Shown: positions 30,296 through 35,191 of the stretch, one piece after another
Position numbering within the stretch: position 1 is the stretch's first letter
How the letters are laid out: the number at the start of each line of letters is the position of its first letter
Source of the DNA: a bacterium
Lineage (GTDB): Bacteria > Cyanobacteriota > Vampirovibrionia > Gastranaerophilales > Gastranaerophilaceae
Length of the DNA: 64,000 nt
Assembly: GCA_017541465.1 (NCBI GenBank)
Contig: JAFXYZ010000062.1
Location: 1 to 64,000, forward strand
Direction of reading: 5' to 3'
Notes under the pieces: model-generated
What the model was told of the DNA's origin: nothing
The model's database searches: none
What the model saw: the letters and a program-made list of their open reading frames with translations, nothing else
Translations under genes and position numbers: made by a program

Positions 30296-30973
30296 CTAAT
30301 AATTCATCGCCCCCTCACGAAGAACTTTGCAGGCACATGCATAACCAACATTGTTTTTATTACATTTGTTTTGAATATCGCAACCACTTGGGAAAAGACC
30401 ATCTTTTTTCAATAAAAACACAAAAACATCTCTGCCAACGGTATTAGGTTTCTTCATACCATTTAGATCAACTTCCATAAACATACAAACATTTTCTGCT
30501 CCTGCACGATCAGAAGTATCAGAACATGCGGGATTGAAAGGTTCAAAACGTATCTGAATACCATCAGCAAGAATCAATTTGTAAAAATCATCCATTTGGT
30601 CATCCCATTGAATCGTTGTTCCGCCGTTTAAAAATTTATATTTACCTTGTTCAAAACAACCGGTACCTGCTCCACATTCTTTTGCATTAATCAATTTACT
30701 TTTATAGAAATTATGAACAACAGAACTATCTTCGCCCCAACTTTGAACATGACCTTCTTCCATAATAATTTGATTTGTTGCCTGGGCTAAAGTAGAATAT
30801 GCCTTTTTGAGTTTTGAAACGAATTCCTCATTATTTGTATTATTCATCAAAGTAGGAACTGTCATAGCAGCAATAACGCCGATAATAACAAGAGTTATAA
30901 GCACCTCTGCTAACGTAAAAGCATTGTTACTGCAGGAGGGGGTAGGAACGAGCTTATTTTTGGAATTAAACAT
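30296..30973 (-). CDS. Prepilin-like protein without a long C tract
   Basis: This is a 225-residue prepilin-like protein. It starts MFNSKNKLVPTPSCSNNAFTLAEV, so the leader is only about 17 residues and the tract is interrupted (five C only); the frame cannot slip as easily as in its paralogues. The core is FTLAEVLITLVIIGVIAAMTVP, then KLKKAYSTLAQATNQ, DLNGMKKPNTVGRD and CKVLREGAMNY. It is closest to the proteins at 11006 and 15594. A GAGAGAGG ribosome site precedes the ATG. It may be the constitutive member of the family; that is inference. Confidence 0.88.
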   Translation of the reverse strand: MFNSKNKLVPTPSCSNNAFTLAEVLITLVIIGVIAAMTVPTLMNNTNNEEFVSKLKKAYSTLAQATNQIIMEEGHVQSWGEDSSVVHNFYKSKLINAKECGAGTGCFEQGKYKFLNGGTTIQWDDQMDDFYKLILADGIQIRFEPFNPACSDTSDRAGAENVCMFMEVDLNGMKKPNTVGRDVFVFLLKKDGLFPSGCDIQNKCNKNNVGYACACKVLREGAMNY

Positions 30974-31132: not shown

Positions 31133-31579
31133 ATGTTTAATGTCGGTTTTTCATATCCGGGCATAAGTCAGCAGGGACAAGCTAATCAGGGACAAGGCGC
31201 CCAAAATCAGAATGCCCAAAACTCTCAGCAGGCGAAGTGGCAGGAAGCAAAGCAAAAAAGATATAATGAAGTATATCAGCACGAGCTTGCCCACAAAAAC
31301 GCAGCAGGTTCGCTTGGCGGAAACATCGTCATTGAACAGGATTCAAACGGCTGGGCTTACGGCGGACATGTCAATATAACTATCCCCGGGCTCAACACCG
31401 AAAACCCCGAAGAAACAAGAGAACAGGCGCTGACCGTTATCAAATCGGCTATGGCACCCTCCGATCCTTCAGGGCAGGACTACAAGGTTGCAGGCGAAGG
31501 CAGAGCCCTTCTCGCAGCTGCAAATGAACAGATAGAAAAAAATAAAACAGTCGGAAACAAGCTCGATATTTCAGCATAA
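31133..31579 (+). CDS. SprA-related putative metalloprotease
   Basis: This 148-residue protein has the core of the SprA-related family: VYQHELAHKNAAGSLGG (an HExxH-like zinc motif, HELAH, about residues 50-54) followed by GWAYGGHVNITIPG. Before it lies a Q/N/G-rich flexible N-terminus (SQQGQANQGQGAQNQNAQ). It has no signal peptide or membrane segment, and it is shorter than many relatives, so it may be the catalytic core only. Protease activity is predicted for the family, not proved here. TTGGAG lies shortly before the ATG. Confidence 0.75.
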   Translation: MFNVGFSYPGISQQGQANQGQGAQNQNAQNSQQAKWQEAKQKRYNEVYQHELAHKNAAGSLGGNIVIEQDSNGWAYGGHVNITIPGLNTENPEETREQALTVIKSAMAPSDPSGQDYKVAGEGRALLAAANEQIEKNKTVGNKLDISA

Positions 31580-31621: not shown

Positions 31622-31770
31622 AAACGATTTAATTCCTGAATTGTTTATATTAGAATGATTCTGTAAGGAAACAAGGGTGTAATTCCCTGACCGGGACGCG
31701 GCCGTTAAAGTCGGAATGCTTACAGACTTAGTTCGCGTTCCCGAGAACCGAAATTTTAAGTATGTTGAGT
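31622..31770 (+). ncRNA. Candidate structured leader RNA / riboswitch-like aptamer, class unknown
   Basis: Successive paired elements are visible. A first hairpin has arms 31622-31629 and 31639-31646. A closing stem TCTGTAAG / CTTACAGA (31660-31667 with 31719-31726) encloses AGGG-loop-CCCT (31674-31688) and GACCGG..CGGCCGTTAAAGTCGG. Then comes TTCG-c-GTTC-ccga-GAAC-CGAA (31732-31752). Stretches such as AGGGTGTAATTCCCTGACC and GTTAAAGTCGGAATG recall FMN-riboswitch core sequence, but the element is about half the size and lacks other conserved arms. It leads directly into a hairpin that hides the next gene's ribosome site. No class is assigned. Confidence 0.5.
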
Positions 31771-31799
31771 ATCCTTACGCTTATTAGTAAGGATTTTTT
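31771..31799 (+). promoter_or_regulatory. Terminator-like hairpin that contains the Shine-Dalgarno site
   Basis: ATCCTTAC (31771-31778) pairs perfectly with GTAAGGAT (31787-31794) and is followed by T5. AAGGA inside the right arm is the only ribosome site for the ATG at 31801. Formation of the hairpin would end transcription, block translation, or both. Confidence 0.65.
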
Positions 31800-31800
31800 A

Positions 31801-32508
31801 ATGAGCGTAAATGCAGTTTCACAAACATCAAACAATCTTTGCCCTCACGGACTACCCCCGGGAGCTTGTCCTGCGTGCAGCGGCGGGGGCGGTGGTCATA
31901 AAAAACTGCACTCTAACCCGGTTAAGAAAAGCAACCAGTGGAGTTATGCAAAGTGTTATTCCGTCTGGCAAAGTATGAAAGCGCAAAAAGCAGCCGCAGA
32001 GCAAAAAGCACTCAACGAAGCCCGTCAGCTCGAAACCGCAAAAGCCCTTCAGACAAAGCTGAACAAAATAATGACAAAGTTCCAGAACCTTGCAACAACT
32101 CTGACAAATATGCTCCCCGAAGGTGTCAGAGCAACGTTCGCAAAGGTGTTTAACTCTGTCATCACACCGATGATGAACCTTATCAATAAACTTCCTCAGT
32201 TAGGGGAAAATATCAAAAATTTCCTTAACGATATAAAAGCCCAAATTCTTTCGGTCAGTGAAAAACTGACGGCAATATACGGCGAAATCAAGAACTTCGT
32301 TGAAAGGAAAATAGCTCAAAGATACAAAAAACTCACAAAATCACTCATTAAGCTGTTTGTCTTTAATTTAGAAGACGAAAACTACTCTGATGACGAAGAA
32401 CTCAGAATATTTAAGTCAAGAGAACTAAGAAAAATCAGGCACGCAGTTATGAGCGTAACAAAAGAAAGTGAAAGCAGTAATGAAAATTCTCCCAAAACAC
32501 ACAAATAA
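31801..32508 (+). CDS. CPHGLPPGACPACSG-tagged protein, unknown
   Basis: This 235-residue protein has a Cys/Gly-rich N-terminal motif CPHGLPPGACPACSGGGGG (about residues 13-31) that could bind a metal through its three Cys and a His. Most of the rest is charged helix (about 45-215) and it ends in a polar tail. It has no signal peptide. The start at 31801 uses AAGGA seven bases upstream; a longer frame from 31762 would run through the hairpin and lacks a ribosome site. It overlaps the next gene by 29 bases, so the two are coupled. Metal binding is a guess from the motif. Confidence 0.65.
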   Translation: MSVNAVSQTSNNLCPHGLPPGACPACSGGGGGHKKLHSNPVKKSNQWSYAKCYSVWQSMKAQKAAAEQKALNEARQLETAKALQTKLNKIMTKFQNLATTLTNMLPEGVRATFAKVFNSVITPMMNLINKLPQLGENIKNFLNDIKAQILSVSEKLTAIYGEIKNFVERKIAQRYKKLTKSLIKLFVFNLEDENYSDDEELRIFKSRELRKIRHAVMSVTKESESSNENSPKTHK

Positions 32509-34012
32509 CGTTAAGTTAAGTCCTATAAACGTGGATAAAGAGCCCATAAACAAAACTCTCGAAGGTGTTTTAATCAATAACCACTACAAAAAGGATAACT
32601 TCGCAGAGGATATTGTTGATTTCAGCGAGATTTCAAATAATCTGCTCATCTCGGAGAGCTCTTACGACAATTCAAAAGACCTGAAAAACAATAAAGAACA
32701 GTCTTTTGACCTCAAAAAAGCTATGATGCCCCTCCTGATAGCTGCAGGCTGCACCCTAGCGGCTACACTCGGCGTTAGTGCACTGCTTTCAAAAGTTTCA
32801 AAAAATATTCTGAACATCAATATTTCAGAGCAGCTCCCCGACCTTGCCCTCAATATGAATATTAAACAGGAGCCGCATTTTGCGACCTACAGAATGCTCA
32901 GAGATCCGAGCTTTAAAAACATGATAGGTGCTGCTGCCGTCTTTGCGTTTTCGGGGCTGACAATTATGGGAAGGAACTTCCTGAGCGCAACAAAAGAAGT
33001 CTGGGTTAAAAAGCAGCAGGCAGACATTGAAAGAGATTTGCAGGAAAACCTCATTGACGTTGAAGCACAGGCATTTTCAGGCAAATTAAAGGTCGTAAAC
33101 AATATGCTCAACGAAAATGTCAAATATTTTAAACGGGTACTTAACCCTCAGACAAAAATTCCGCTCTCGGTAAACACTATGCCCTATATGAATTTTAAGG
33201 GTAAAATTGAGGACAACACCAAAGAAACAAAACCCCAAAAAGACAATAAAACAAACAACAAAAAACAGGGTATTTTATTAGGGCTGACGACACTCGGTGT
33301 TTGCCTTGCAGGGTTCTTTGTCGGGCGCTATGCCTTCAGAAACCTCAGAAAAACAATGAATCTCGCAAACGATTACACAAACAACTACGCGACAAAAATC
33401 ATCAACGATATTGAACAAACGGTTGAAGCAGGGATTAAATCTCCCGAAGTTACAACAAGGCTCGATAACTGTTTCCAGGCTATCAGCGCAAAGCCGGAGC
33501 GCATAAGAGAGGTTATGGGAAAACTCAAATATTCCGCTGAAGAAATTGACGGAATGATAGCAAGTTGCACGGAAGCAAAACGCACTATTTTCGCGGATGC
33601 GCCGACCGCTCTCGGAGGTATTCCAAAGAAAATTCAATACTACTGCTACCTCGACGAGAACAGGGGACACCTCTATAACTGGGTTATCCACCCCGAAAAC
33701 AAGTTCACAAAGTATGTTTTCCTGTCCTTCACCGCGGTGAGTGTTGTCGGAGCAATCGTTGAGAATGCTTTCGATATGCTCAAAATGGTCGGAGTTGAGA
33801 AGGAAAACGCAAAAACAGAACTCAACCTCAAGAAAAGACTTGTAGATGTTGAGATTAGAAACTTTAAAGCAAAGAAGGACAGCGCAATAAGACCGTTGAT
33901 AGATGATTTTAACAAAAAACTAGAGGCAGGTGCTGATAAACAGGAATTGAGACAAAAAGCGGATAATATTCTTGTTGAAATCAAAAACGGACCTCCGTAC
34001 GTTTATTCATAA
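32480..34012 (+). CDS. Multi-helix membrane protein, unknown
   Basis: This is a protein of about 510 residues with about four hydrophobic segments (MPLLIAAGCTLAATLGVSALL; MIGAAAVFAFSGLTIM; GILLGLTTLGVCLAGFFVG; YVFLSFTAVSVVGAIVENAF) separated by long charged helical regions. PYMNFKG in the middle repeats the FKG tag seen at N-termini elsewhere. Start choice is uncertain (GTG 32468 or ATG 32480, both with weak ribosome sites). It overlaps the upstream gene and is followed seven bases later by the next, so three genes form one unit under the structured leader. I recognise no family. Confidence 0.62.
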   Translation: MKILPKHTNNVKLSPINVDKEPINKTLEGVLINNHYKKDNFAEDIVDFSEISNNLLISESSYDNSKDLKNNKEQSFDLKKAMMPLLIAAGCTLAATLGVSALLSKVSKNILNINISEQLPDLALNMNIKQEPHFATYRMLRDPSFKNMIGAAAVFAFSGLTIMGRNFLSATKEVWVKKQQADIERDLQENLIDVEAQAFSGKLKVVNNMLNENVKYFKRVLNPQTKIPLSVNTMPYMNFKGKIEDNTKETKPQKDNKTNNKKQGILLGLTTLGVCLAGFFVGRYAFRNLRKTMNLANDYTNNYATKIINDIEQTVEAGIKSPEVTTRLDNCFQAISAKPERIREVMGKLKYSAEEIDGMIASCTEAKRTIFADAPTALGGIPKKIQYYCYLDENRGHLYNWVIHPENKFTKYVFLSFTAVSVVGAIVENAFDMLKMVGVEKENAKTELNLKKRLVDVEIRNFKAKKDSAIRPLIDDFNKKLEAGADKQELRQKADNILVEIKNGPPYVYS

Positions 34013-34024
34013 GGAGTTGAGCAA

Positions 34025-34498
34025 ATGAAAATTACTCCTTTTCTTTCATACCAAATATCTCAGCTCGGTAAAGATGTTTCTCTTCCAAACAGCAAGCGGA
34101 ATTATTGCAAAGTTAATGAGACAAAAATCAATAATATTGCGGAGTACGGAGAAAATGCGCTCGGCGAAGTTGATATGTTTTTAAAAACCGCAAGGACGGA
34201 AGAGCAGGTCATTGACGGACTTTTCGTACTCGACAAAATGCTCGATAACAAGGTTTCGGGGATAGACAAACTATATCCGACACTCTCAAGGTTTAACGAA
34301 ACAAACTCACCGAATATTCAGGTTATGCTCGCAGGGATTTACAGAAAAACGTTAGTGCCCGATGCTTTCGGCCCGCTGAATAAAATGCTTTATAAACAAA
34401 TCACTAAGCCAAACTCACCCTATTTTGACGCGACAGAAGAAATAGGCGGTGCGGTGCTCGAGTACATCACAAACTACAAACCACACACACATATATAA
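34025..34498 (+). CDS. Small helical protein, unknown
   Basis: This 157-residue protein is predicted mostly helical, with no signal peptide. It starts MKITPFLSYQISQLG, in the style of other short tagged proteins here, but without FKG. GGAG just after the upstream stop (34012) serves as its ribosome site, so it is co-translated with the membrane protein. Blocks such as LDKMLDNKVSGIDKLYPTL and QVMLAGIYRKTLVPDAFGPL suggest a HEAT-like or helical-bundle fold, without firm support. Confidence 0.6.
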   Translation: MKITPFLSYQISQLGKDVSLPNSKRNYCKVNETKINNIAEYGENALGEVDMFLKTARTEEQVIDGLFVLDKMLDNKVSGIDKLYPTLSRFNETNSPNIQVMLAGIYRKTLVPDAFGPLNKMLYKQITKPNSPYFDATEEIGGAVLEYITNYKPHTHI

Positions 34499-34638: not shown

Positions 34639-34645
34639 AAAGATG

Positions 34646-34651
34646 TATAAT
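34646..34651 (+). promoter_or_regulatory. -10 box six bases before the RAYT start (leaderless promoter)
   Basis: TATAAT, TTTTTT, ATG at 34658, with no ribosome site. The box lies just after the left REP. Confidence 0.55.
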
Positions 34652-34657
34652 TTTTTT

Positions 34658-35191
34658 ATGAATTACAGACGGGTTTTTATACAGAACAGTTATGTTCATT
34701 TGGTTATTCTTGCATATAAGCGCCAAAATATTTTTACGGATAATATTGAGCTTTTAAGGTGTGCTTTTAAAAATGCAAAAAAATATTTTAAATTTGAAAT
34801 ATTGACAATATGTGTTCTGCCTAACCACATACATATGATTTTAAAACCTGATAATATTTCGGAATATCCGAGAATTATTACTTCCATAAAATATTATTTT
34901 TCTAAAAATATTAATTATGTTGGGCAGGAATGCCCAACTTACGGCTATATGAACAAAAGAGAGCGGGGAATATTCCAAAGAAGATACTATGAACATACTA
35001 TTAAATCTGAAGATGAATTTAATAATCACATTAATTATATTCACTTTAATCCTGTGAAACACGGACTTGTTAATGCGGTTAAGGACTGGGAATACTCAAG
35101 TTTTCATCAATTTGTCAAGAAAGGCTTGTACGAAGTAAACTGGGGTAGTGAAGCAGATGTTGAAAGTATTAAAAATTTGGATTTTGGATAA
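34658..35191 (+). CDS. REP-associated tyrosine transposase (RAYT, Y1_Tnp/TnpA_REP)
   Basis: RAYTs are HUH-type single-strand DNA nucleases that bind and move REP hairpins. In this 177-residue protein the HUH motif is His57-Ile-His59 (VLPNHIHMIL). The catalytic-tyrosine helix is NYIHFNPVKHGLV (Tyr127), followed by the family's DWEYSSFHQFVKKGLY. The gene lies between identical direct REPs. A third REP (34919-34942) lies inside the gene and is translated as residues 88-95 (VGQECPTY), between SKNIN and RERGIFQRRYYEH where relatives have no such segment as far as I recall. The start at 34658 is preferred over 34643 for its -10 spacing. It looks intact. Confidence 0.92.
   Translation: MNYRRVFIQNSYVHLVILAYKRQNIFTDNIELLRCAFKNAKKYFKFEILTICVLPNHIHMILKPDNISEYPRIITSIKYYFSKNINYVGQECPTYGYMNKRERGIFQRRYYEHTIKSEDEFNNHINYIHFNPVKHGLVNAVKDWEYSSFHQFVKKGLYEVNWGSEADVESIKNLDFG
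34919..34942 (-). repeat. REP inside the RAYT coding sequence
   Basis: GTTGGGCAGG.ATGCCCAAC followed by TTAC; on the minus strand the head is GTAA, as in the flanking copies. It is 24 bases long (eight codons), so the frame is kept. Confidence 0.85.

Follow-up and report, generated by a model that had tools for sequence, protein, structure and literature searches.

The segment 31622–31800 of a 64,000-nucleotide stretch of DNA from a member of the Gastranaerophilaceae (the window) stands directly before an uncharacterised operon, and raises two questions: what does this leader sense, and what do the genes behind it do? A first-pass annotation had read it as a candidate new riboswitch. The structured leader is real, and that reading is partly supported. 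The fold is more stable than those of dinucleotide-shuffled sequences (z = −2.74), 1 of 200 shuffles being equally good. A scan of the region returned 2 terminator-like sites versus 0.3 in shuffles, the 31771–31794 hairpin among them. The eight-base stem described in the annotation is exact, 31660–31667 (TCTGTAAG) pairing with 31719–31726 (CTTACAGA). The bulged hairpin is present at 31731–31748, and the perfect hairpin at 31771–31794 has 8 bp and six T's. Its right arm holds the ribosome site, AAGGA at 31789–31793, 7 nt upstream of the ATG at 31801. The downstream gene codes for CPHGLPPGACPACSG and is the first of a three-gene unit, the order of which is kept in relatives.

On the same strand, directly 5′ of the leader, lies a SprA-related gene (31133–31579; Pfam PF12118 above cut-off). 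A near-perfect AT-rich hairpin, AAACGATTTAATTCCTGAATTGTTT, occupies 31622–31646, immediately 5′ of the aptamer, and is possibly the terminator of the upstream gene or an operator. Further upstream, the minus-strand ORF 30296–30973 appears by eye to be type IV pilin-like, with a FTLAEVLITLVIIGVIAA motif, and similar ORFs are present in several related loci.

All 4227 Rfam families were scanned, and a single above-threshold match was obtained in the 64-kb window. RF01689 (AdoCbl-II, class II cobalamin) aligned over positions 1–81 of its 81 at 39.4 bits, which surpasses the gathering cut-off of 36.5 by only 2.9 bits (E = 2.9e-8 with cmscan on the leader alone). The 189-position, class I-type model RF00174 (Cobalamin) gave no match at this locus. 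By its sequence, the leader RNA is a catalogued vitamin B12 (cobalamin) riboswitch, a new member and not a new class. The covariance-model search proposed in the annotation thus gave a clear, full-length match to a known class, and the claim of novelty is not retained. The aptamer-plus-platform design is upheld, as is, in kind, the suggestion of a cofactor ligand, which from the class and the regulon would be cobalamin.

A whole-genome search found one further RF01689 element in the same genome, on contig C7 (7656–7733, 44 bits; L117:1150–1560). This second class II element precedes a 94-aa ORF of no known function, followed by a gene whose product is apparently exported. It was also the only locus returned by RF00174 in this genome, below threshold.

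Table 1. Coordinates of the riboswitch elements and of the operon genes in the window.
Feature	Position	Strand	Basis
Class II cobalamin (AdoCbl-II, RF01689) aptamer	31651–31729	+	cmscan
P3 closing helix, 31660–31667 with 31719–31726, 8 bp	31660–31726	+	sequence, covariation
P4 (31674–31677/31685–31688), loop L4 TGTAATT	31674–31688	+	covariation
P5 (CCG/CGG), loop L5 GGACG (31694–31698)	31691–31701	+	two-sided change, covariation
P6 (CCG/CGG), loop L6 TTAAAGT, then J6/3 AATG	31702–31714	+	alignment of relatives
P13 hairpin (GTTC/GAAC), loop L13 GCGTTCC (31735–31741)	31731–31748	+	L5–L13 covariation
Putative expression platform: 8-bp hairpin ATCCTTAC/GTAAGGAT with Shine-Dalgarno AAGGA (31789–31793), then T run; sequestor and/or intrinsic terminator	31771–31799	+	sequence, terminator scan, similar leaders
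Gene 1, CPHG protein, 235 aa; invariant Cys14, His16, Cys23, Cys26, Cys52	31801–32508	+	
Gene 2, about 510 aa, all-helical, hydrophobic stretches, internal duplication	32480–34012	+	
Gene 3, 157 aa, C-terminal half strongly conserved	34025–34498	+	

In terms of the class II fold, the closing stem of the first reading is P3, the bulged hairpin is P13, and the perfect hairpin is a terminator-like element that hides the Shine-Dalgarno (SD) sequence. Helix pairing was counted on segments anchored on the aptamer core, because the MAFFT alignment misplaced P3 between groups differing in J3/4 length. Against shuffles that ignore the relatedness among aptamers, 135 distinct aptamers had 523 of 540 cells paired in P4 (shuffle maximum 416), 375 of 405 in P5 (368) and 646 of 1080 in P3 (618), the outer pairs of which are weak here. 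In a 44-member set, 276 of 352 P3 cells were paired, with a shuffle maximum of 227. Within the four-helix core, P3, P4 and P5 exceed all shuffles; P6 is nearly invariant and therefore brings little covariation information. The CCG/CGG of P5 in the window is a two-sided change relative to the common CTG/CAG.

L13 is predicted to pair with L5 through a one-base bulge, forming a kissing loop that follows the rule CG-N-rc(L5). The rule is satisfied by 34 of 77 leaders (mean of 12.3 and maximum of 21 in 1000 shuffles), and by 40 of the 135 aptamers (shuffled mean 13.7, maximum 24). The window has a rare L5, GGACG, and the matching CGTTCC is present in its own P13 loop. From these alignments, P3, P4, P5 and the L5–L13 contact covary across relatives, with changes in the window itself, so that the comparison of homologous leaders called for in the annotation returned strong covariation. 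The kissing loop of env8HyCbl is bulged or mismatched (PMC10653944). The window copy resembles RF01689 by the full-length match, the P3–P6 core, the L4 and L6 loops and the kissing loop, and is of the form without the long P6 extension. It differs by a score barely above the cut-off, by the rare P5 and L5 with matching L13, and by the uncharacterised operon that it would govern.

The switch is widespread among relatives, and its position is constant. RF01689 matches were found in 52 of 59 related genomes, and a CPHG gene lay 3′ of 42 of the 78 elements. In a same-family sample, 32 of 36 genomes had a CPHG gene, always with the switch directly 5′ (32/32); among the four others, three were without the switch and one had it before a TonB receptor. 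The named homologous loci are mostly from metagenome-assembled genomes of Candidatus Gastranaerophilales or Melainabacteria, many from animal gut, some being labelled just 'bacterium' or otherwise. There, a class II aptamer signature was found 5′ of 79 of 80 CPHG genes, 134–486 nt upstream of the CPHG codons, and nowhere else in the 1.77 Mb on both strands; as the order itself supplied the members on which the signature is based, and the 80 loci may overlap with the other genome sample, this proportion gauges specificity and is not an independent discovery. Elsewhere in the order, the switch precedes genes for NrdD, an NrdA-type reductase, MetE, CobT and BtuB-like TonB receptors. The targets examined are largely B12-repressed or B12-linked genes, nrdD, metE, cobT and the BtuB-like receptor genes being classic B12-repressed ones. 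Behind other copies, in four loci of related genomes, are genes for an OprB-type porin, B12-binding radical SAM proteins and a CbpB-type peptide-modifying radical SAM maturase.

Class membership, covariation, kissing loop and conserved operon linkage are thus established by computation, and the segment 31651–31800 is very probably a class II cobalamin riboswitch that acts as an OFF switch for the three-gene operon. We infer that cobalamin is bound and that its effect is repression, at the translational or the transcriptional level. Cobalamin would bind the P3–P6 core, and L5 would kiss L13, stabilising P13. The downstream RNA would then form the 31771–31794 hairpin, in which the ribosome-binding site is hidden; with the T run that follows, this hairpin could also terminate transcription. 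Without ligand, the 3′ part of the aptamer would pair with bases preceding and inside the left arm of the hairpin, which would not form, and the genes would be expressed.

Folding models are consistent with this scheme. In the unconstrained optimum, the sequestor hairpin is missing, bases preceding and inside its left arm being paired with the 3′ part of the aptamer; it returns when the aptamer and P13 are imposed on the fold. Imposing the core over 99 leaders lowered the mean SD accessibility from 0.28 to 0.21 (37 lower, 13 higher, p = 7e-6). Together, the restored hairpin and the lower accessibility favour an OFF switch. For the window's own leader, the modelled change was small, from 0.79 to 0.65 with the core alone imposed. 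A like SD hairpin, with GGATTTTTT, is found in many CPHG leaders.

Another anti-sequestor, formed between the aptamer GTAAGGA (31663–31669, repeated at 31787–31793) and the left arm of the hairpin, has 7 pairs in the window, yet 219 of 2000 permutations of the leaders were as good, and it was rejected. An alternative hairpin could form between the start-codon region (TAATGAGCGTAA, 31799–31810) and its complement on the loop side of the SD hairpin (TTACGCTTATTA, 31775–31786); in the model, it frees the SD but buries the AUG.

Control of a ribosome-binding site or terminator hairpin by P13 and the kissing loop has been demonstrated experimentally in other cobalamin riboswitches (PMC10653944). 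In the metE riboswitch of Priestia megaterium, the kissing loop likewise stabilises P13 and promotes the off hairpin (PMC10653944). In P. megaterium, it is the 3′ side of P13 that pairs with the terminator arm; in the window, the model gives the competing role to 3′ bases of the aptamer. Compared with the marine class II riboswitch env8HyCbl, the window leader differs in the T run behind its SD hairpin, which makes termination possible as well.

A new class with an FMN-like core, sensing FMN, a metal or another cofactor, is hardly credible. The resemblance to the FMN aptamer seen in the annotation is real but weak, and amounts to a local similarity of short loop text. The FMN model (RF00050) scores 20.3 bits, far under its gathering cut-off of 66.2, and class membership was rejected on this score; big portions of the model are also absent from the leader. 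The similar text plausibly consists of T-loop-type loops, which we take to be common to both aptamers. RF01689 fits end to end instead, the related switches stand 5′ of B12-linked genes, and the L5–L13 pair, typical of cobalamin riboswitches, covaries.

Within the cobalamin fold, the effector could be another corrinoid or a corrinoid precursor, or the output could be activation, as several corrinoids can act on cobalamin riboswitches and one activating riboswitch is known (PMC9600662, PMC10653944). This is improbable, as the genes that make up the regulon of the order are ones that B12 usually represses and the SD hairpin design suits repression. More improbable still is that the downstream hairpin merely terminates the leader or an upstream unit without any switching. 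The T run and the terminator-like score of the hairpin speak for this, but it holds the SD of the next gene, the ATG of which comes immediately after, and many CPHG leaders have the same layout, preceded by a covarying aptamer and P13. An OFF switch responding to cobalamin is therefore preferred.

What the switch would control is less familiar. The encoded proteins typically have about 230, 500 and 160 residues; for gene 2, the start was assumed to be the ATG at 32480, while the ORF list starts at the GTG at 32468. Searches of Pfam, NCBIfam and PDB sequences with the three proteins returned no family, just coiled-coil-type noise, and gene 3 had no relative in the PDB by sequence search. Gene 2 contains a duplicated helical unit, residues 75–235 matching 390–514 (probability 97.3, E = 2.8e-11). 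Its AlphaFold2 model from a 71-sequence alignment is all-helical, with a pLDDT of 74.5 indicating moderate confidence; the prediction without alignment was uninformative (pLDDT 37). Foldseek gave no match to this model at E ≤ 0.001 and comparison with helical bundles gave middling Z scores (best 8.6), so no fold was assigned. Gene 1 is present in 347 of 383 genomes of the family, with a single match outside it in a sample of the class; the CPHG genes located 3′ of the switch in other families of the order are more divergent. Gene 2 is limited to the family but for one weak match in a sample of the phylum. No relative of gene 1 was found in the viral contigs searched, and the open literature searched yielded nothing about either the operon or B12 switches in Gastranaerophilales. 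Just 3′ of the operon, the ORF 34643–35191 resembles by eye a REP-associated (Y1-type) transposase.

The B12 setting gives a clue to function. A TonB receptor barrel is encoded in just 4 of 36 same-family genomes, and in 3 of the 32 with a CPHG gene; a FecCD permease is present in 3 of 24 same-family genomes. The MetH activation domain is absent from all sampled genomes of the order, the lone match being in another family of the class. NrdJ, the B12-dependent reductase, was above threshold in 16 of 20 near-complete genomes with the CPHG gene versus 1 of 11 without (Fisher p = 0.0004 by genome and 0.01 by genus, uncorrected for phylogeny). The scarcity of TonB receptors and FecCD permeases, together with the retention of NrdJ alongside CPHG, is in keeping with an operon involved in B12 acquisition or handling, and such a role is plausible. 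Contig C28 of the window's own genome encodes both a TonB receptor and a FecCD permease, and the operon is therefore not necessarily the sole B12 route there.

The operon may tentatively be proposed, as a possibility we would not favour strongly, to be a so far undescribed system for acquiring or handling cobalamin, which under repression by the riboswitch would serve gut Gastranaerophilaceae as their main machinery for scavenging B12. These bacteria use NrdJ and mostly are without BtuB-type receptors and, in the sampled genomes, BtuC-type permeases. The invariant Cys/His cluster of gene 1 might then have a part in the handling of cobalt or corrinoids. A B12-sparing role, or one unrelated to transport, is also conceivable.

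At the RNA level, the window contributes a further member of the class II cobalamin riboswitches, distinguished by a rare variant of the kissing loop. The new point is that an uncharacterised operon, placed behind this switch in nearly every relative, is marked as a member of the B12 regulon. A conserved operon of no known family is thereby tied to B12 status across an entire order of gut bacteria, most of them uncultured, which provides a testable handle on how B12 is supplied where most genomes lack TonB receptors.
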